A DNA stretch of 37,180 bases from Bryobacteraceae bacterium (GTDB lineage Bacteria; Acidobacteriota; Terriglobia; Bryobacterales; Bryobacteraceae), in contig JASHOO010000315.1 of NCBI GenBank assembly GCA_030041035.1, positions 1-37,180 on the forward strand, given 5' to 3'. This document shows positions 9,365 through 20,292 of this stretch, in pieces. The notes below the pieces were generated by a model, which saw nothing but the letters and a program-made list of their open reading frames with translations, was not told where the DNA came from and made no database searches. A program made the position numbers and the translations under genes. Each line of letters opens with the position of its first letter. Positions within the stretch are counted from its first letter, which is position 1.

Positions 9365-12300
9365 ATGGCAATCAAACCAGAACCTGATTTAGGGATCAAT
9401 AGCTGGCTCGAAGACGAGCTTTATCAACAGTACCTGCACGACCGTGGAGCGGTCGACGAGAGCTGGAAGCATGTTTTTGAAGAAGGCGGAAACGGGCTTC
9501 CGGCGCCGGCGAAGCCAGAGGAGCAGGCAGTGCGGAAGGTGGAGGAGGCGGGGCCAACGGTTTCGGGCGATGAACTGGCGCCACTACGCGGGGCAGCCGC
9601 GCGCATTGCGGAAAACATGGGCGCCAGTCTTGCGGTGCCGGTGGCGACCTCGCAGCGCACCATTCCGGTCAAGGTAATCGACGAGAACCGGCGCATCATC
9701 AATCACCATCGGACGCTGCTGGGGAAGAGCAAGGTTTCCTACACGCATATCATCGGCTGGGCGATTGTGCGCGCTCTCGAATATTTCCCAGGGCTGAATC
9801 ACGCGTACGCGGAGCAGAATGGCGAGCCGTTTCGCGTGGTGCGCAAGACCATCAACCTCGGCATCGCGGTAGATGTAGCGGCGAAGAGTGGCGCGCGGAA
9901 TCTGCTGGTGCCGAATCTGAAAAACGCCGGTGGAATCGATTTTCAGCAGTACGTGACGGCGTTTGACGATCTGGTGAGCCGGGCCCGCAGCGGAAAACTC
10001 ACCAGCGAAGATTTTCAAGCAACGACGATTTCCATCACCAATCCGGGCACGGTGGGAACGATGCAATCGACGCCGCGGCTGATGGTGGGGCAGGGCGCGA
10101 TCATCGCGGTGGGCACGATCGATTATCCGGCCGAGTACCAGGGTACTGCGCCGGAGATGCGCGCCGCGCTGGGAATCAGCAAGGTGATGACGCTGACCTG
10201 CACGTACGATCACCGCATCATTCAGGGCGCGGAGTCAGGCATGTTTTTGGGGAAACTCCAGGCGCTGGTGAACGGGGAAGACGGGTTCTACGAAGAAATT
10301 TTCGAGCACTTGAAGCTGCCTTACAACCCGGTGCGGTGGGAGCCGGACCGGCAGGTGAGCCTTCCCGGTGCAACGGGGCACACGGCGGAGGTGGCGAAGG
10401 AAGCGGCGGTACTTCAGTTGATTAATGCGTATCGCGTGCGCGGGCATCTGATCGCGGATCTCGATCCGCTCGGCGGTGAACCCAGTTACCATGCGGAACT
10501 GGATCCGCTGCGTTATGGGCTGACGATTTGGGATCTGGATCGCGAGTTTCTTACCGGCTCGCTGGGTGAGGCGATCGGAGAAGGGGCGCCGAAGTCGGTC
10601 GCCACGCTGCGCGAGATTCTGGAAACGCTGCGCCAGACTTACTGCGGCAAGATCGGGTGCGAGTACATGAACATCCAGCATCCGGAGCAGAAGCGCTGGC
10701 TGCAGCAGCGCATGGAGCCGGAGGCAAACAACTGGCCGCTGGATCGTGCAGTCCGGCTGCGGATTCTGGATGACGTGATCGGGGCCGAACAGTTCGAGCA
10801 CTTTCTACATTCGCGGTTCGTGGGACAGAAGCGGTTCTCGTTGCAGGGTGCGGAGACGGCGATCGCGATCCTGCACGAACTGCTGGACCGGGCGGCCGAC
10901 CGCAACGTGCATGAGATCGTGATGGGGATGGCGCACCGGGGGCGGCTCACGGTGCTTGCCAATATCGTGGGCAAACCACTGGCGCAGATCTTCTCGGAGT
11001 TCGAAGGCAACATGGACCCTTCGAGCACGCAGGGATCGGGCGACGTGAAGTACCATCTGGGTGCGCGCGGGGTGCGGCGGTCGGAATCGGGCAAGGAGAT
11101 TGTGGTTTCGGTGGCGCCCAATCCGAGCCATCTGGAAGCGGTTGATCCGGTGGTGGAGGGCATTGTGCGGCCGAAGCAGGACCGGCTGGGCGATATCGAG
11201 CGGGAGCGCGTGATTCCACTGCTGATTCACGGCGATGCGGCGTTTGCCGGGCAGGGAGTGGTGGCGGAGACGCTGAATCTTTCGCAACTGGACGGCTATT
11301 CGACGGGCGGCACGATTCACCTGATCATCAACAACCAGATCGGTTTCACGACGCTGCCGGACGAGGCGCGCTCAACGCCTTATTCAACCGATGTGGCGCG
11401 CATGGTGCAGGCGCCGATTTTTCACGTGAACGGTGACGATCCGGAAGCCGCCATCCGCGTGGCGCAGATCGCGTTCGATTACCGGCAGGAGTTCAAGAAG
11501 GATGTCGTGATCGACATGTTCTGCTACCGCCGCTGGGGCCACAACGAGGCTGACGACCCGAGTTACACGCAGCCACTGCTGTACAAGAAGATCAAGGACC
11601 ATCCCTCGGTGGCGGTGCTCTACGGAGAGCGGCTGGCGCGCGAAGAAGTGGTGAGTCCGGCTGAGGTTCAGGCGATCTACAAACGCAAAACGGCGCAGCT
11701 TGCCCAAGCCTTCGACGCCGCGCAGGAGCGTGCGGAGCAGTACGAACGGCAGGAACTGAGTGAGGTGCCCGAAGCCGAAATGATCACGATGCCGCACGCC
11801 ACGGCGGTGAGTGAAGCTTTGTTGGAACGGGTAGTGGTTGGTATCACGTCCTTCGCGGAAAATTTCCACCTGCATCCCAAGCTGCACGGCTTTGTGGAAA
11901 AACGTCGAGAGGCGTGGGAGAAAGGCGGGCCGATCGACTGGGCCTATGGGGAAGCGCTGGCGTTCGGGACGCTGGTGCTGGAAGGAACGCCGGTACGGTT
12001 GAGCGGGCAGGATTCTGGCCGCGGCACATTCAGCCAGCGTCATTTGGTTTTTTATGACGCCGAGACCGGGCACAAGTACTGCCCATTGCAGCACGTGGCG
12101 GACGGCCAGGGGCATTTCGATGTGTTCGACAGCTCGCTCAGCGAGTTTGCGGTGCTGGGATTCGAGTTCGGCTACAGCGTGGCCGATCCGCTGACGCTGG
12201 TGATGTGGGAGGCGCAGTTCGGCGATTTCGCCAACGGCGCGCAAGTGATGATCGACCAGTTCATCATGGCGGCGGAGTCCAAGTGGGGCCAGCCGAGCGG

Positions 12301-13042
12301 CCTAGTGATGCTGCTGCCGCACGGCTACGAAGGCCAGGGGCCGGAGCATTCGAGCGCGCGCATCGAGCGGTTTCTGGTTCTTTCGGCGGAGCAGAATGTT
12401 CAGGTAACGAACTGCTCGACGCCCGCGCAATACTTTCACCTGTTGCGGCGCCAGATGCGCGGCGGAGCCGACCGGCGTGGCATGCGCAAACCGCTGGTCA
12501 TTTTCACGCCCAAGCGCATGTTGCGCTACCCGCGCGCGGCCTCCACGTTTGCCGAGCTGATGACCGGCGGCTTCCGCGAGATTCTGGATGACCCGTCGGC
12601 GGATACGGGGCGGGTTTCGCGGCTGGTGTTCTGCACGGGCCAGATCTATTACGATCTGATGGCAGCGCGCGAGGGGGAGAAGGCAAATCACGCGGCCATC
12701 GTGCGGATTGAGCAGTTGTATCCATTTGCGGCGGAACAGGTGAAGGATGTGCTGCTGCGATACCCGATCACTTGCGAAGTGGTGTGGGCGCAGGAAGAGC
12801 CGCGCAACATGGGGCCGTGGCGATTCATTTCCGAGCAGATGAAGCCGCTGCTGGCTTCGACGCAGCGCGAACTGCGCTACGCAGGGCGTCCGGAAAGCGC
12901 CAGCCCGGCGACGGGTTCGTTGAAACGCCACCAGGAAGAGCAGTCGGACATTGTTCGCGAGGCCCTGACACCGGGAGGGACGCCGGGCGCAAGCAAAGTG
13001 CGGATGATGGTGCGGCGCAAGACATCGGTCCAGCGAAGCTGA
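9365..13042 (+). CDS. kgd: Multifunctional 2-oxoglutarate dehydrogenase E1 with N-terminal E2 succinyltransferase domain (Kgd type)
   Basis: The 1225-residue protein has the architecture of mycobacterial Kgd. A short N-terminal docking segment (SWLEDELYQQYLHD, residues 14-27) and an Ala/Pro/Glu linker come first. A 2-oxoacid dehydrogenase acyltransferase domain follows (about 75-320), with catalytic His283 in CTYDHRIIQGAESG and no lipoyl domain. The ThDP-dependent E1 follows: YRVRGHLIADLDPL, MGMAHRGRLTVLANIVGKP, GDAAFAGQGVV, DMFCYRRWGHNEADDPSYTQP and the C-terminal VVWAQEEPRNMGPW. It decarboxylates 2-oxoglutarate and transfers succinyl groups in the TCA cycle, needing a lipoylated E2 and an E3 from elsewhere. 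In mycobacteria GarA controls this enzyme; no FHA-domain gene is nearby. Confidence 0.95.
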   Translation: MAIKPEPDLGINSWLEDELYQQYLHDRGAVDESWKHVFEEGGNGLPAPAKPEEQAVRKVEEAGPTVSGDELAPLRGAAARIAENMGASLAVPVATSQRTIPVKVIDENRRIINHHRTLLGKSKVSYTHIIGWAIVRALEYFPGLNHAYAEQNGEPFRVVRKTINLGIAVDVAAKSGARNLLVPNLKNAGGIDFQQYVTAFDDLVSRARSGKLTSEDFQATTISITNPGTVGTMQSTPRLMVGQGAIIAVGTIDYPAEYQGTAPEMRAALGISKVMTLTCTYDHRIIQGAESGMFLGKLQALVNGEDGFYEEIFEHLKLPYNPVRWEPDRQVSLPGATGHTAEVAKEAAVLQLINAYRVRGHLIADLDPLGGEPSYHAELDPLRYGLTIWDLDREFLTGSLGEAIGEGAPKSVATLREILETLRQTYCGKIGCEYMNIQHPEQKRWLQQRMEPEANNWPLDRAVRLRILDDVIGAEQFEHFLHSRFVGQKRFSLQGAETAIAILHELLDRAADRNVHEIVMGMAHRGRLTVLANIVGKPLAQIFSEFEGNMDPSSTQGSGDVKYHLGARGVRRSESGKEIVVSVAPNPSHLEAVDPVVEGIVRPKQDRLGDIERERVIPLLIHGDAAFAGQGVVAETLNLSQLDGYSTGGTIHLIINNQIGFTTLPDEARSTPYSTDVARMVQAPIFHVNGDDPEAAIRVAQIAFDYRQEFKKDVVIDMFCYRRWGHNEADDPSYTQPLLYKKIKDHPSVAVLYGERLAREEVVSPAEVQAIYKRKTAQLAQAFDAAQERAEQYERQELSEVPEAEMITMPHATAVSEALLERVVVGITSFAENFHLHPKLHGFVEKRREAWEKGGPIDWAYGEALAFGTLVLEGTPVRLSGQDSGRGTFSQRHLVFYDAETGHKYCPLQHVADGQGHFDVFDSSLSEFAVLGFEFGYSVADPLTLVMWEAQFGDFANGAQVMIDQFIMAAESKWGQPSGLVMLLPHGYEGQGPEHSSARIERFLVLSAEQNVQVTNCSTPAQYFHLLRRQMRGGADRRGMRKPLVIFTPKRMLRYPRAASTFAELMTGGFREILDDPSADTGRVSRLVFCTGQIYYDLMAAREGEKANHAAIVRIEQLYPFAAEQVKDVLLRYPITCEVVWAQEEPRNMGPWRFISEQMKPLLASTQRELRYAGRPESASPATGSLKRHQEEQSDIVREALTPGGTPGASKVRMMVRRKTSVQRS

Positions 13043-13097
13043 GATCGACTGAAAGCAAAGGGCTTCCTGCCCCCGGTCTTTCAAACCGACTAGCACC

Positions 13098-13124
13098 TAA
13101 CCGGTAAACCTTTCTACAGTCTAA
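13098..13124 (+). promoter_or_regulatory. Candidate ECF-type autoregulatory promoter (TAACC-N16-GTCTAA)
   Basis: TAACC at 13098-13102 and GTCTAA at 13119-13124 are 16 nt apart, matching the AAC-type -35 and TC(T/G)AA-type -10 of many ECF promoters. They lie 11 bp upstream of the ECF sigma ATG. Autoregulation is common for ECF operons. Based on pattern only. Confidence 0.4.
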
Positions 13125-13135
13125 AGATCAGCCGG

Positions 13136-13711
13136 ATGGAACAGAGCGATGCCGAGGCGGTCGCACAGATCCGCGCCGGGAACGCCGATGCGTATCGTGT
13201 GCTGGTGGAGCGCCACAGCCGCAGTGTTTTCCGTCTGGCGTTTCGTATGACGGGTAACCAGCAGGACGCCGAAGATCTGGTGCAGGAAACCTTCCTGCGG
13301 GCATTCCGCCAGCTCCGGAAATACGACGGCCGCGCGGGGTTCGGCACATGGCTGTACCGTATTGCCGCTAACTGCTCGCTGGATCTGATCCGGGCCCGGA
13401 AGCGGCGCCAGGAACAACAGACGGCGGTGGACGAGGAAGGACAGGAAATGGCGGCCGCCGCATCCGGGGATCCGACACCAGACCGAATTGCGTTCAGCGG
13501 CGAGTTGCAGCAGTTGCTGGAGCCGGCGCTGAACCGGTTGAGCCCCACCGAGCGGACGGCGTTTGTGTTGCGACATTACGAAGGCATGTGCATTGAGGAG
13601 ATCGGGAAGGCGCTGGGTGTGCAGGCGGGCGCAGCCAAGCACAGCGTGTTTCGCGCCGTGCAGAAGCTGCGGCGGGCGCTCGAGCCGGCGGTGAGTACGG
13701 GAAGGCCATGA
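13136..13711 (+). CDS. RpoE-like ECF sigma factor
   Basis: This is a 191-residue ECF sigma factor. Region 2 (about 18-85) has YRVLVERHSRSVFRLAFRMTG, DAEDLVQETFLRAFRQL and FGTWLYRIAANCSLDLIRARKRR. Region 4 (about 125-180) has LSPTERTAFVLRHYEGMCIEEI and the helix-turn-helix GVQAGAAKHSVFRAVQKLRRAL. Its stop overlaps the start of the anti-sigma gene (ATGA), so the two are translationally coupled in a one-to-one ratio, as usual for sigma/anti-sigma pairs. It heads a five-gene run that includes three secreted proteins, likely targets or sensory partners. Upstream lies a candidate ECF-type promoter, suggesting positive autoregulation. There is no good Shine-Dalgarno before ATG 13136. Confidence 0.94.
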   Translation: MEQSDAEAVAQIRAGNADAYRVLVERHSRSVFRLAFRMTGNQQDAEDLVQETFLRAFRQLRKYDGRAGFGTWLYRIAANCSLDLIRARKRRQEQQTAVDEEGQEMAAAASGDPTPDRIAFSGELQQLLEPALNRLSPTERTAFVLRHYEGMCIEEIGKALGVQAGAAKHSVFRAVQKLRRALEPAVSTGRP

Positions 13712-14460
13712 AGCATCTGCACGAGGAAGAGCTGGTTCTGCATTATTACGGGGAAGGCGCGGAGTGGGCCGGTGAGCATTTGCAAATTTGCCAAGCGTGC
13801 CGCGCGTCGTTCGAGTCTTTAGAGCGCGTGTTGCGGGCCATGGACCGGCTGGAAGCGCCCGAGCCGGCGCACGGGTATGAGGGCCGGGTGTGGAACCGGC
13901 TTGCGCCGGGGTTGACGAAATCGCGAGCACGATGGTGGAGCGAACTCGGCGCATGGCTCACGCCACGGCGCCTGGCAACGGTTGCGGCCATGGCGGCCTT
14001 GCTGGTGGCGGCATTTCTGGCGGGAAGAGTTTCACAGCAGCGGCAGCAGACGGCTGGGCTCTCGGGCCCGGTGCGCGAGCGCATCATGCTGGTGGCCGTG
14101 GGCGAGCATCTGGAGCGCTCGCAGATGATCCTGGTCGAGCTGGTGAACAATTCGGCTACCGGACCGGTGGACATCTCGGAAGAGAAGCAGCGTGCACGGG
14201 ATCTGGTGGACGAGAACCGGCTTTACCGGCAGGCCGCGCTCAAGAACGGCGACCGGGGCGTTTCCAGTGTTCTGGATGAACTGGAGCGCACACTATTGGA
14301 GGTGGCGCACAGTCCGTCAAAGCTCGACTCGGCGGAGTTTGCGCGAATTCGCGAGCGCATCGAGGCGGATGGCATTTTGTTCAAGATTCGTGTGGTGGGC
14401 AGCAACTTGAGAGAGAGGGAGCGAACTCCGCTAGCGACCGGGAGCGGCGAGGCGCTTTGA
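13708..14460 (+). CDS. Membrane-spanning zinc-finger anti-sigma factor
   Basis: The 250-residue protein carries an N-terminal zf-HC2 (ZAS) motif, H24-x3-C28-x2-C31 (HLQICQAC), the sigma-binding module that holds ECF factors inactive. A single membrane helix follows at about 89-105 (LATVAAMAALLVAAFLA). The C-terminal 145 residues would be periplasmic and are mostly charged helices (REQ/RIMLVAVGEHLERSQMILVELVNN, then DLVDENRLYRQAALKNG). That domain presumably senses an envelope signal, directly or through the secreted coiled-coil and HEAT proteins encoded next. Coupled to the sigma gene by an ATGA overlap. Confidence 0.88.
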   Translation: MKHLHEEELVLHYYGEGAEWAGEHLQICQACRASFESLERVLRAMDRLEAPEPAHGYEGRVWNRLAPGLTKSRARWWSELGAWLTPRRLATVAAMAALLVAAFLAGRVSQQRQQTAGLSGPVRERIMLVAVGEHLERSQMILVELVNNSATGPVDISEEKQRARDLVDENRLYRQAALKNGDRGVSSVLDELERTLLEVAHSPSKLDSAEFARIRERIEADGILFKIRVVGSNLRERERTPLATGSGEAL

Positions 14461-14470
14461 GGGAGGGAAC

Positions 14471-14977
14471 ATGAGGACGTTCGCGACGGTGGTATTGCTG
14501 GCGGCCGGAGTCGGCATCATGATTACGGCGCAGGGATTGCAGACGACGCAAAACAGCAGCGAGCAGAAGGAGGCGGTGCGGCGCGCGCTCGAGCGGGATG
14601 AAGACGCGGACGAGCAACAGGCGGCAGCCGACGAACGGCAAGCCGAGCTTGACCAGGCCCAGGCCGAACGCGATGCAGCCCAAGCCGATCGGGATGAAGC
14701 CCAGGCTGAGCGTGACGAACTGCAGGCCGGACGAGATGAAGAGCAGGCCGATCGAGATTCTGAACAAGCGGATCGCGAGCAGCAGCAGGCTGAGCAGGAT
14801 CAAGCGCAAGCTGGGCGAGATCAGGACCAGGCGGACCTTGACCAGGAACAGGCCGACCGGGACCAGGTGCAGGCGGAATTCGATCAGGAGGGAGCGGAAC
14901 AAGAGCAACAAGCGAACGCGCCGGCTCCGCGCGCGGTTGTTCCGCGGCCGCCGGCGCACGATCAACGGGAGAAGTAG
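14471..14977 (+). CDS. Secreted polar heptad-repeat protein (DxxQAxR repeats)
   Basis: The 168-residue protein begins with a signal peptide or anchor (FATVVLLAAGVGIMITAQG) and a short linker. Fourteen consecutive heptads of consensus D-x-x-Q-A-(D/E)-R fill residues 47-144. A proline-rich, basic tail follows (PAPRAVVPRPP). The repeats contain almost no Leu/Ile/Val; alanine is the only regular nonpolar residue. A rigid, highly charged single helix or very polar coiled coil is therefore more likely than a classic leucine-zipper coil. GGAGGG sits 5 nt before ATG, a strong ribosome-binding site. It lies 10 bp after the anti-sigma gene and 2 bp before the TPR/HEAT gene. It may be a periplasmic spacer or ruler; function unknown. 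Confidence 0.82.
   Translation: MRTFATVVLLAAGVGIMITAQGLQTTQNSSEQKEAVRRALERDEDADEQQAAADERQAELDQAQAERDAAQADRDEAQAERDELQAGRDEEQADRDSEQADREQQQAEQDQAQAGRDQDQADLDQEQADRDQVQAEFDQEGAEQEQQANAPAPRAVVPRPPAHDQREK
14609..14902 (+). repeat. Fourteen 21-bp repeats encoding the DxxQAxR heptads
   Basis: The repeat unit is about 21 bp and in frame, with recurring cores such as CAGGCCGA. Copies differ at synonymous and non-synonymous sites, so the array is old rather than a fresh slippage product. The heptad register never breaks. Confidence 0.75.
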
Positions 14978-14979
14978 TC

Positions 14980-16476
14980 ATGCACATGGTTTTGAGAGTT
15001 GGATTGCATATATCGATTGCGCTGGGCGCAGCGTGGATGGTGCTGGGGCAAGACGAGTTGCCGCCACCACCGCCACCGTCTCCGCCGGGAGCACCGCAGG
15101 TCGCACCGGCTCCGCCTGCCCCGCCCGCGCTGCCGGATGTGCCGGAGATCTCGATCCCCCCGATTCCGCCGTTGCCTCCGATCATGGAAGAGACTCTGAA
15201 GGGGCTACCCGGGACGCTGGCGAAGGCCGAGGCCGCGCAGAAGCTGGCAGCAGAGACTCTGAAAATCTGGCCATTGAATCAGTTGGATGTTTTGGCGAAC
15301 GCGGAAACCCTCGGCGAGCAAGCCATGGCCTTGGCGATGCAGGCGCAAGGGCTGGCACATAGCAGCGACCAAGAGGATCGCTACTATGAGCGCGGCCAGA
15401 GCGACCTCGACGCGAGCCGTTGGGAAAAAGCTTTAGACGATTTTGGCGAAGTGGTTTCGCGCGGTGGTGCCCACGCTGATGGAGCACTTTACTGGAAGGC
15501 CTACGCCTTAAACAAGCTCGGGCGGCGTGATGAGGCGCTGGCCGCCATCGCCGACCTCCGCAAGAATTACGCCAGCAGCCGGTGGCTGGATGACGCACGC
15601 GCGCTCGAGATCGAAATCAGGCAGGAGGCGGGCAAGCCGGTTGCCCCGGAGTCGGCCGACGATGAGGAAATGAAGCTGATGGCCCTGAACGGGCTGATGA
15701 ATTCAGATCCGGATCGTGCGCTGCCGCTGCTCGAAAAGCTGCTGCACAGCTCACAGTCGCCCAAGATTAAAGAGCGCGCCATGTTTGTATTGACACAGAA
15801 CGATTCGCCCAAGGCGCGCGAGGTTGTGGTGCAGATGGCCAAGGGCGCTTCCAACCCGGATCTGCAAATGAAGGCCGTGCATTACCTCGGGGTCATGGGT
15901 GACAAGCAGGACTTGGGCGACGTGTATACCGCTACCAATGATGTCGAGGTGAAGCACGCCGTGCTGCATGCACTCATGGTGGGCGGGGCGAAGGAACAAT
16001 TGTTTGCCGCGGCCAAAAGTGAAAAGAATCCGGATCTTCGACGCGAGGCGATCCACTGGCTGGGAACCATGGGGGCGGATCAGGAGCTGTGGCAACTCTA
16101 CCAGAATGAGCCGGTTACCGAGGTTAAGGAGCAGATTGTCCATGCGCTGTTCGTAGGCGGGAGAACGGACCGGCTGCTGGACGTCGCCAAAACCGCCAAG
16201 GAAGCGAAACTGAGGGAGGAGGCGATTCACTGGCTGGGTGCCTTGGGTTCACACCAAGCAGGTGATGCACTGGCGGCGATGTACCCAAGTGAGTCCGATC
16301 AGGAGGTGAAGGGCCAGATCATCCATGCGCTGTTCATCCAGAACAACGGCAAAGCGCTGGTGGAGATTGCGCGAAAGGAAACCAATACCGAGCTGAAGAA
16401 GCAGATCGTGCACTGGCTGTCGGTCATGCATTCGAAAGAGGGCACGGATTACCTGATGGAGTTGTTGAATAAATGA
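14980..16476 (+). CDS. Secreted proline-rich TPR/HEAT-repeat protein
   Basis: The 498-residue protein has a signal peptide (VLRVGLHISIALGAAWMVLG), then a proline-rich stretch (residues about 25-70), a helical segment and a TPR-like region (RYYERGQSDLDASRWEKALDDF, ALYWKAYALNKLGRRDEAL; about 130-215). The C-terminal half is a HEAT array of about 31-residue repeats. It alternates two forms, LR(R/E)EAIHWLGxMG and VKxQI(V/I)HALFVGG. Such solenoids bind other proteins. In context it probably works with the anti-sigma factor or the heptad protein outside the membrane. ATG 14986 is an alternative start. Its stop overlaps the next ATG. Confidence 0.84.
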   Translation: MHMVLRVGLHISIALGAAWMVLGQDELPPPPPPSPPGAPQVAPAPPAPPALPDVPEISIPPIPPLPPIMEETLKGLPGTLAKAEAAQKLAAETLKIWPLNQLDVLANAETLGEQAMALAMQAQGLAHSSDQEDRYYERGQSDLDASRWEKALDDFGEVVSRGGAHADGALYWKAYALNKLGRRDEALAAIADLRKNYASSRWLDDARALEIEIRQEAGKPVAPESADDEEMKLMALNGLMNSDPDRALPLLEKLLHSSQSPKIKERAMFVLTQNDSPKAREVVVQMAKGASNPDLQMKAVHYLGVMGDKQDLGDVYTATNDVEVKHAVLHALMVGGAKEQLFAAAKSEKNPDLRREAIHWLGTMGADQELWQLYQNEPVTEVKEQIVHALFVGGRTDRLLDVAKTAKEAKLREEAIHWLGALGSHQAGDALAAMYPSESDQEVKGQIIHALFIQNNGKALVEIARKETNTELKKQIVHWLSVMHSKEGTDYLMELLNK

Positions 16477-17534
16477 AGGCTGTCTTGCTTACCCTGGCGG
16501 CGGTGAGCCTGCTGCCGGCGCAAGAGCCGCGGCTTACGAACGCTAAGATCGAAACGCGCACGGTCACATCGGGTCTCGATCGCGAGTTTCACGCGATCCT
16601 GACCTCCGAGAATGGCGCGGCATGGGTCGGTTACGCGGTGCGCGCAGTTCCGGGCGACCATCAGATGTGCTGTTACAGCTCGTTTGAGGATGCAGCGGGC
16701 AATCGCTGCTGCCGGGGTTGCGCGCTGGAAGCTTCCAGGGGCGGTGTTACGGTGGCGAATGCGCCCAGGCCGATCTCACTCGAATCCGCGGGGTATATTT
16801 TCGTACTGTTTCGCATCGAGCAACACGCTGTCGATCGCATCCGAACCTTCTCGGCCGACTGCGAGCTGGATGGCGGCGGACTTCCGGTTTACTGGTTCAC
16901 CGGAGTGCCGGCTGCAGAGAGCGTCGCCCTCCTCGCCGGCTTCGTTCCGCAAATAGCAGCGGAGCATCGCCAAAGCGCCCCGGCCATGGCGGCCATCGCG
17001 CTCCACGCCGATCCGGCGGCAGACCAGGCGCTCGAAAGGTTGGTTGCGCCGGGAGAGCCCGATTCGATCCGTGAAAAAGCGACGTTCTGGCTGGGTAGCG
17101 CGCGAGGCCGCCGAGGCTTCGAAGTGCTTCGGCGCATTGTGACGGAAGATGCGAGTGATCGCGTCCGGGAGAAGGCCGTTTTCGGATTAAGCGTCAGCCA
17201 AGAGCCGGAGGCTGTCGCGGTCATGGTCGGGGTAGCGAAGAACGACCGCAGCAGCCACGTTCGGGGCCAGGCGCTGTTCTGGCTGGCGCACAAGGCCGGC
17301 GAGATGGCTGCGGCTGCTATTACTGAGGCCGTTGAGAACGATCCGGATACGGAAGTCAAGAAGCGCGCGGTATTCGCGTTGCAGCAACTTCCTCCGGATG
17401 AAGGCGTTCCGCTGCTGATTCAGGTGGCGCGGACGAACAAGAATCCGGCGGTGCGTAAACAGGCGATGTTTTGGCTGGGCCAGTCCAACGACCCCCGGGC
17501 TGTCCGCTTTTTTGAGGAAGTCTTGCTAAAGTGA
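16473..17534 (+). CDS. Secreted HEAT-repeat protein with a cysteine-rich N-terminal region
   Basis: The 353-residue protein has a short signal peptide (AVLLTLAAVSLLPAQ). A beta-rich N-terminal domain (about 20-165) follows, with a striking Cys cluster, MCCYSS then NRCCRGCALE. A HEAT array from about 185 to the end has repeats such as IREKATFWLGSARG, VREKAVFGLSVSQ, VRGQALFWLAHKAG and VRKQAMFWLGQSND. The repeat style matches the preceding gene, so the two are probably related by duplication and divergence. Coupled by an ATGA overlap; last gene of the ECF operon. The Cys cluster could bind metal or form disulfides in the oxidising envelope. Confidence 0.83.
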   Translation: MKAVLLTLAAVSLLPAQEPRLTNAKIETRTVTSGLDREFHAILTSENGAAWVGYAVRAVPGDHQMCCYSSFEDAAGNRCCRGCALEASRGGVTVANAPRPISLESAGYIFVLFRIEQHAVDRIRTFSADCELDGGGLPVYWFTGVPAAESVALLAGFVPQIAAEHRQSAPAMAAIALHADPAADQALERLVAPGEPDSIREKATFWLGSARGRRGFEVLRRIVTEDASDRVREKAVFGLSVSQEPEAVAVMVGVAKNDRSSHVRGQALFWLAHKAGEMAAAAITEAVENDPDTEVKKRAVFALQQLPPDEGVPLLIQVARTNKNPAVRKQAMFWLGQSNDPRAVRFFEEVLLK

Positions 17535-17624: not shown

Positions 17625-18326
17625 ATGCAACCGCTGCTGCATCTGGAAGGCGTGACGAAGGTATTCACAACCGACGAGGTTGAGACGCACGCACTCGCCG
17701 GGATTCATCTGGAGATCAACAAGGGTGATTATATTTCCATTTCCGGACCCTCGGGCTGCGGAAAATCGACGCTGCTGGCCATTTTAGGCTTGCTCGATAC
17801 GCCCTCAGACGGCAAGTATATTTTGAATGACACGCCGGTGGAAACGCTCAAAATGCGCGACCGTGCGCGCATCCGAAATCGGGAAATCGGCTTCATTTTT
17901 CAGGCATTCAATTTAATTGGCGATCTCACGGTGTATGAAAACGTGGAGCTGCCGTTGACGTATCGCAACATGCCGGCGCGCGAGCGGAAGGGCCTGGTGA
18001 TGGAGGCGCTGGAGCGGGTGGGCATGTCACACCGCATGAAGCACTACCCTTCGCAGCTCTCGGGCGGACAACAACAGCGTGTGGCCGTGGCGCGGGCGCT
18101 GGTGGGAAAGCCCTCGATTCTGCTGGCTGACGAGCCTACCGGCAACCTCGACTCGGCCAATGGCGAGGCGGTGATGGAGTTGTTGCGCGATCTGCATCGC
18201 TCGGGTGCGACCATCTGCATGGTGACGCACGATCCGCGCTATGCCCGCACGGCCGATCGAGTGATCCAGTTATTCGACGGGCGCGTGGTGGAAGAAGGGC
18301 AGAACGCGGCGGCCGCTGTAAACTGA
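17625..18326 (+). CDS. ABC transporter ATP-binding protein, LolD/MacB type
   Basis: The 233-residue ATPase has the Walker A GPSGCGKSTL (about 42-51), a Q-loop in IGFIFQAFNLIGDLTVYENV, the signature LSGGQQQRVAVARAL, Walker B ILLADEPTGNLD and the H-loop MVTHDP. The FQ.FNL...TVYENVELPL context is typical of the LolD/MacB/FtsE branch, which drives lipoprotein release, mechanotransmission or peptide export with an FtsX/MacB-like permease. No permease is adjacent, so the partner must be encoded elsewhere. The start is set by GGAGG 7 nt before ATG 17625. A GGGAACC-type element lies further upstream. Confidence 0.92.
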   Translation: MQPLLHLEGVTKVFTTDEVETHALAGIHLEINKGDYISISGPSGCGKSTLLAILGLLDTPSDGKYILNDTPVETLKMRDRARIRNREIGFIFQAFNLIGDLTVYENVELPLTYRNMPARERKGLVMEALERVGMSHRMKHYPSQLSGGQQQRVAVARALVGKPSILLADEPTGNLDSANGEAVMELLRDLHRSGATICMVTHDPRYARTADRVIQLFDGRVVEEGQNAAAAVN

Positions 18327-19266: not shown

Positions 19267-20292
19267 TTATGACAGCCGGACCGGTTTGGGACCCTTCGTT
19301 AGGACACGCCCGATGCGGTAGCCGGCGGGCAAATTCCGCTCGAGTTGCGCGGCGTCCTCCTCCGGAAGCGCGATCAATAGCCCCCCCGAGGTTTGCGGAT
19401 CGTAGAGCAGTTTTTCCAGTTCCGGGGCCAGATCGCGCGTGAGCTCGACAGCGCATGACGCGAACTCGCGGTTGTTTTTCAGGCCTCCCGGCAAAGCGCC
19501 TTTGCGCGCGTAGTCGAGCGCACCGGGGAGGAAGCGGACAGCGCTGGTTTCTATTTCGAGTGTTACGCCGCTCGCTAGCGCCATTTCGCGTGCGTGGCCG
19601 ATCAACCCAAAGCCGGTGACATCCGTGCAACCGTGAACGTCGAACCCCAACATGGCTTCACAGGCCCGGCGGTTCAATGCCAGCATCGATTCGATGGCGG
19701 CCTGCACGTCGGACTCGGCTGCGATCTCCCGCTTCAGCGCGGTGGTGATGACACCGGTGCCGATGCGTTTGGTGAATACCAGGACGTCGCCGGCGCGTGC
19801 TCCCGAATTGGTTTTAACGCGCTCAGGGTGCACCGTACCCGTCACGGCATAGCCGAATTTCACTTCGTCATCGGCCACGCTGTGACCACCCAGAATCACG
19901 CAGCCAGACTCATGGATTTTGTCAGCGCCGCCCTTGAGAATCTGCTCCAATGTATCCAAATCCCCGTTGGCCGGGTACGCTAGTAGAGACAGGGCGGAGA
20001 GCGGCTTGCCGCCCATGGCGTAAACATCGCTCAGCGCATTGGCCGCGGCGACGGCGCCGTAAGTGTATGGATCGTCGACAATAGGGGTGAAAAAATCAAC
20101 GGTCTGCACGAGGGCGAGCTCCGGCGTCAGCTTGTACACACCGGCGTCGTCGGCAGTGTCAAACCCCACCAGCACGTTCTCGTTAGTGACGCGCGGGATC
20201 GCGGCCAATACCCGGTCCAATAACTTTGGACTCAGCTTGGACGCTCAACCCGCGGCTTTCACGTGTGCGGTCAGCTTGTGCTGCGTAATCAT
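19267..20292 (-). CDS. selD: Selenide, water dikinase SelD, itself a selenoprotein (in-frame TGA = Sec16)
   Basis: SelD makes selenophosphate from selenide and ATP, the selenium donor for selenocysteine and selenouridine. The track shows only 317 residues from a TTG at 20220 and lacks the active site. Reading upstream through a TGA (20247-20245) gives a start at ATG 20292 with GAGGA 5 nt before it. The N-terminus is then KLTAHVKAAG-U-ASKLSPKLL, aligning U16 with E. coli Cys17 and K19 with Lys20. The total is 341 residues, normal for SelD. Downstream, DTADDAGVYK, GGHSVADDEVKFGYAVTG and DVTGFGLIGH are intact. A SECIS-like hairpin follows the TGA. The gene is followed by dedA and divergent to the 20328 gene. 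Confidence 0.93.
20215..20231 (-). promoter_or_regulatory. Bacterial SECIS-like hairpin of selD
   Basis: On the minus strand GTCCAA (20231-20226) pairs perfectly with TTGGAC (20220-20215) around the 5-nt loop AGTTA. The apical loop starts 19 nt after the TGA, within the 16-37 nt range reported for bacterial SECIS elements, and has a G in its first two positions as that consensus requires. It lies inside the coding sequence, as bacterial SECIS elements do. A second GTCCAA copy nearer the TGA could pair with the same TTGGAC but would leave a 16-nt loop. Confidence 0.72.

Follow-up and report, generated by a model that had tools for sequence, protein, structure and literature searches.

In a Bryobacteraceae genome and in relatives across Acidobacteriota, the gene for an ECF sigma factor is grouped with those for a single-pass ZAS-type (RsiW/ChrR) anti-sigma factor, a predicted secreted TPR-HEAT solenoid and, usually, a second predicted secreted HEAT protein, and these genes stand behind one nearly invariant promoter. 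From sequence comparisons, we consider it rather probable that they form a phylum-wide autoregulated ECF envelope-stress switch with an rpoE-rseA-rseB-like layout, in which the TPR-HEAT solenoid is the secreted partner. An earlier note on this DNA had read five genes as a dedicated envelope-sensing unit. Its sigma/anti-sigma pair with secreted scaffold partners, conserved gene order and putatively autoregulatory ECF-type promoter stands, but neither the five genes as a unit nor the heptad-repeat protein as a core part was borne out, and the core consists of sigma, anti-sigma, TPR-HEAT and HEAT.

Gene layout and encoded proteins

The window is the whole stretch of DNA that was analysed, 37,180 nucleotides of contig JASHOO010000315.1. 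A predicted autoregulatory ECF promoter (CTAACC-N15-AGTCTAA, 13097..13124, + strand) has the end of its −10 element 11 nt upstream of the sigma ATG, which leaves a very short leader. It is followed on the same strand by the ECF sigma factor (191 aa, 13136..13711), the anti-sigma factor (250 aa, 13708..14460), a polar heptad-repeat protein (168 aa, 14471..14977), the TPR-HEAT solenoid with a Pro-rich N-terminus (498 aa, 14980..16476) and the HEAT protein (353 aa, 16473..17534). All five reading frames are present and as tightly packed as had been claimed, with ATGA overlaps or gaps of at most 10 bp: in order, a 4-bp ATGA overlap, 10 bp, 2 bp and another 4-bp ATGA overlap. The signal peptides previously assigned to the last three products agree with N-terminal hydrophobic segments that appear signal-peptide-like by hydropathy. 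An accessory gene for an orphan LolD/MacB/DarD-type ABC ATPase (17625..18326, +) starts 90 bp downstream of the HEAT gene.

Two neighbouring genes deserve a brief description. A 2-oxoglutarate dehydrogenase fused with an E2-type acyltransferase domain is encoded upstream of the module (9365-13042, +), an arrangement seen so far only in the window's genus (L014, L015); in L179 and L182 the fusion gene lies a few kb downstream of the module. The selD gene (19267-20292, −) was listed with a TTG start, and an upstream ATG is found at 20292-20290. Read by eye from this ATG, the frame gives MITQHKLTAHVKAAG-TGA-ASKLSP, with the TGA at 20247-20245, and because the reading runs through this in-frame TGA, the protein seems to be a selenoprotein in which that codon specifies Sec.

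The sigma factor contains Sigma70_r2 (8e-23, residues 23-91) and Sigma70_r4_2 (1.4e-11, residues 128-178) and lacks regions 1 and 3; two regions joined by a short linker place it among ECF (group IV) factors. Its best NCBIfam matches include the SigE and SigW models, all under their cut-offs, and its closest relatives among about 30 ECF paralogues in the same genome are 38-42% identical. As a rule, an ECF sigma factor is restrained by an anti-sigma factor encoded alongside it and is autoregulated (PMC8103513). The anti-sigma factor has no Pfam match; in profile comparison, RsiW matched it at E 1e-6 and ChrR at E 0.01. The motif H24-x3-C28-x2-C31 is invariant among 36 homologues and lies within an N-terminal helical domain, as in class I ZAS proteins. 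One membrane helix separates it from an extracytoplasmic domain of ∼120 aa. The predicted structure (mean pLDDT 88.5) is all helical, including the outer domain, for which a comparison with PDB structures gave no match at E ≤ 0.001.

The predicted secreted heptad protein repeats [QE]-x-Q-A-[DE]-R-D with 57% identity at lag 7, Ala being its sole regularly hydrophobic position, and its length ranges from 122 to 186 aa in relatives. We rejected it as a core part on finding the gene only in the window's genus, and regard it as a genus-specific accessory. The TPR-HEAT protein matches TPR_6/TPR_16 and HEAT_2 (8e-25), and the HEAT protein matches HEAT_2 (4e-20); homologues of both have a common '...AQ' segment in the signal-peptide-like N-terminus. 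Both also end in similar conserved tails ([YF][LM]xE[IL]LxK and FFEEVLxK; L147-L226), and this similarity suggests that the two proteins arose by an old duplication.

The HEAT protein model (mean pLDDT 88.2) consists of an N-terminal beta domain and a solenoid matching alphaRep-type repeats. Two cysteines of the beta domain, C66 and C130, are near-invariant among homologues. The protein has an extra Cys cluster as well, and many homologues add an MCC...CCGxC cluster. These residues lend some colour to the idea that the system senses metal or redox state through the cysteine cluster instead of envelope damage. The extra cysteines depend on lineage, however, and several lineages have only the two, consistent with a plain structural disulfide; some loci, moreover, are without this gene. 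Metal or redox sensing is therefore judged improbable. Because C66 and C130 persist while the additional cysteines vary, a core disulfide between them is suggested.

Conservation and displacement of the core genes

A search with the TPR-HEAT protein recovered the module in 15 of 41 genomes of near relatives. These belong almost without exception to the same family, and the module in them runs sigma, anti-sigma, TPR-HEAT, HEAT. For a wider sample, a named-genome search was run, and 80 of 224 relatives were kept, which are Acidobacteriota MAGs (gp2, gp3, gp6, Luteitalea, gp18 and Bryobacterales) except one. The exception (L187, JAIEMQ010000005.1) is labelled Cyanobacteria and carries an acidobacterial module; this MAG is probably mis-binned or mis-named.

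Spacing within the module is tight throughout this sample. Gaps of at most 30 bp separate sigma from anti-sigma in 69 of 72 loci (ATGA-type overlap in 60), anti-sigma from TPR-HEAT in 62 of 73 (overlap in 29), and TPR-HEAT from HEAT in 68 of 74 (overlap in 49). An independent search with the anti-sigma factor covered 247 genomes of the phylum and matched in 65; 19 loci, spread over several families, were read among the best matches, and all of them have sigma, anti-sigma and TPR-HEAT in that order. On this evidence the predicted switch is found across Acidobacteriota. Of the five-gene order, whose conservation the earlier note suggested mapping in other genomes, the four-gene core is kept, and the heptad gene was seen only in the window's genus. 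At every locus read, TPR-HEAT lies downstream of the anti-sigma gene, and here only the heptad gene intervenes. The HEAT gene is absent from several loci, some with ample flanking sequence, and is encoded in trans in other relatives; its absence indicates that the HEAT protein is not essential to the switch.

The earlier note had named, as grounds for dropping its reading, the secreted genes lying elsewhere in relatives or having unrelated promoters. They are displaced in three relatives, yet the same promoter is kept. One genome (G006) has, besides its operon copy, a second TPRHEAT-HEAT pair directly downstream of an exact promoter and away from an intact sigma gene. In G063 a HEAT gene remote from any intact sigma gene has the exact promoter directly upstream, and the same holds for a small TPRHEAT-HEAT pair in G049. 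Since they retain the promoter, the displaced genes appear to behave as regulon members. TPR and HEAT folds are generic, so the two genes might be unrelated passengers downstream of a sigma/anti-sigma pair; the tight order over the phylum speaks against this, displaced copies with the same promoter contradict it, and we give it almost no credence. A separate reading frame in G049 (L102, G049:C58, 1059-1517, +) joins sigma residues 1-42 in frame with HEAT repeats; its promoter is intact, and it resembles a module remnant as after an internal deletion.

The promoter and its other sites

The earlier note had proposed TAACC-N16-GTCTAA at 13098-13124 as a candidate ECF promoter, and wider comparison upholds it: the element precedes sigma genes across the phylum and is spacing-specific. 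It is the only exact copy in the 6.85-Mb genome. Allowing N16 or N17 and at most one mismatch, we found it upstream of 67 of 72 sigma genes (N16 in 55 exact and 5 one-mismatch cases, N17 in 7 exact cases), and the sigma ATG usually lies about 7-13 nt downstream of the −10 element. The consensus over loci is CTAACCGC...c[A/T]GTCTAA. The same 67 loci agree by sequence with an autoregulated ECF promoter bearing an AAC −35 box, whereas the −10 element, GTCTAA, differs from the CGT typical of ECF promoters (PMC8103513). Among 61 genomes of the family there are 56 exact N16 sites, 30 of them directly upstream of a module gene. In these genomes a control spacing of N18 gave 9 sites, and no module or ADOP gene followed any of them. 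This spacing-specific signal argues for a real ECF promoter, and by these counts the promoter is conserved far beyond chance.

Some apparent variants proved to have other explanations. Matches at a spacing of 21 upstream of sigma are accounted for by an overlapping duplicated −35 element: L189 and L216 have two copies of this element offset by 5 bp (TAACCTAACC), and twelve other loci show a one-mismatch version. The motif search that the earlier note recommended for defining the regulon gave no callable regulon in the genome itself: only a single site is exact, and at up to two mismatches the motif has 22 sites versus 145 for the reversed pattern. Certain weak sites upstream of PadR/ADOP genes resemble palindromic repressor boxes (GTAGAC..GTCTAC) rather than promoters. 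Such GTAGAC-N-GTCTAC boxes, seen upstream of PadR/ADOP genes in L108 and L083, are likely repressor operators of ADOP clusters.

The remaining 26 N16 sites in the family genomes point to a small set of further genes, many with a start 5-40 nt downstream and mostly encoding envelope or secreted products. ADOP permease genes follow exact sites at +6 to +10 in four genomes (G005, G052, G002, G041) and at +38 in G066, a genome in which the search found no module promoter; in G010 a further ADOP gene follows a site and seems to carry a frameshift close to its start. All six ADOP assignments tested exceed the TIGR03434 family cut-off. An HlyD adaptor gene adjoining LolD-type ATPases lies at +71 in G049, a PPIC-type PPIase gene begins 8 nt downstream of a site, and other sites precede genes for an outer-membrane beta barrel protein and a DUF3738 protein.

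In several lineages, ABC genes of ADOP or LolD type are also found next to the module itself. In 12 of 63 loci, mostly of one gp2 clade, an ADOP gene precedes sigma by 73-254 bp, and in two others one lies directly downstream of the module. A LolD-like ATPase gene stands after the module in G006 (L018), in L178 and in the window's genus, with overlap or near-overlap in the first two. The genome under study encodes at least 67 ADOPs, and we rejected ADOPs as general targets when 3 of 40 ADOP upstream regions examined there had an N16 site (at most two mismatches). The gp2 ADOPs adjoining the module showed no such promoter upstream. Because few ADOPs of the genome carry the site and the gp2 neighbours carry none, the suggestive ABC link is limited to a subset, and another of the approximately 30 ECF paralogues might read ADOP-type sites. 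It remains doubtful, in our estimate, that the module as such regulates orphan ADOP permeases and in certain lineages provides their ATPase, with the TPR/HEAT solenoids as periplasmic parts of a MacB-like export system. In Granulicella under high sugar, the transcript of a sigma factor named SigW and the MacA/MacB proteins rise (PMC7074687), which we take as a lead only.

These sites bear on whether the HEAT proteins regulate at all. They could instead be effectors only, secreted chaperones or adaptors that guard envelope proteins or dock MacB-type (ADOP) exporters, with the anti-sigma factor sensing alone. Relocated HEAT genes that retain the sigma promoter, the extra pair in G006, repeat numbers that vary among HEAT-type homologues, and the ABC and PPIase genes that adjoin the module or share its promoter would all suit such a role. 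The position of TPR-HEAT immediately after the anti-sigma gene, often overlapping it, is instead what is expected of a stoichiometric regulator, and we hold a purely effector role to be the less likely case, one still worth serious attention.

Proposed mechanism and known systems

In the envelope-stress switch that we infer, including its signal, binding partners and phenotype, the ZAS domain would tether sigma at the membrane, and a signal from the envelope would act on the helical extracytoplasmic domain and release sigma through proteolysis or a conformational change. Free sigma would read its own CTAACC-N16/17-GTCTAA promoter, giving positive feedback, and also a limited, variable group of envelope genes, some of them for ADOP/MacB-type ABC permeases. 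By analogy with rpoE-rseA-rseB, the secreted protein whose gene comes next after that of the anti-sigma factor may bind the outer domain of the latter. TPR-HEAT seems the better candidate for this partner, because it lies directly downstream of the anti-sigma gene almost everywhere and the HEAT gene is more often lost or displaced. As an RseB-like partner, TPR-HEAT would bind the anti-sigma domain or extramembrane clients and set threshold and shut-off, and the second HEAT protein would be a more dispensable client-binding effector; these are the least certain steps.

The DNA signature CTAACC-N15/16-[ACT]GTCTAA just upstream of a start codon should make regulons predictable in any cultivated carrier strain. 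In addition, secreted HEAT/TPR solenoids would be assigned to a sigma/anti-sigma pathway, a link apparently undescribed, and a handle is offered on the unexplained expansion of ADOP permeases. Our literature search, whose scope did not extend to the 2021 ECF reclassification, returned no paper that brings together HEAT repeats, an anti-sigma factor, a periplasmic location and an operon, and no description of this ECF system in Acidobacteria. The sigma factor could fall within a group of that reclassification (10.1093/nar/gkaa1229).

ADOP (acidobacterial duplicated orphan permease, TIGR03434) is a possible target family that adjoins the module or shares its promoter, and is distinct from the system itself. 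The SigW-RsiW and ChrR systems share the ZAS domain with its HxxxCxxC motif, but the outer domain of the present anti-sigma factor is unrelated to theirs, and we know of no secreted HEAT partners in those systems. A close parallel in layout is sigmaE-RseA-RseB of Gammaproteobacteria, where rpoE-rseABC encodes a sigma factor, a single-pass membrane anti-sigma factor and a secreted partner in one operon under an autoregulated AAC/GTC-type promoter. The acidobacterial module likewise joins a sigma factor, a membrane anti-sigma factor and a predicted secreted partner, behind a promoter of AAC/GTC type. No RseC gene was seen here, and the anti-sigma factor is a ZAS protein whose helical outer domain is without a significant fold match. 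A LolA-like RseB in third place was sought as well and dismissed: the third core gene encodes TPR-HEAT, and the fifth gene of the window's module a beta domain with a HEAT solenoid, so that TPR/HEAT solenoids stand where rpoE-rseABC has the LolA-like RseB. The parts are of known kinds, and their combination seems to be undescribed.
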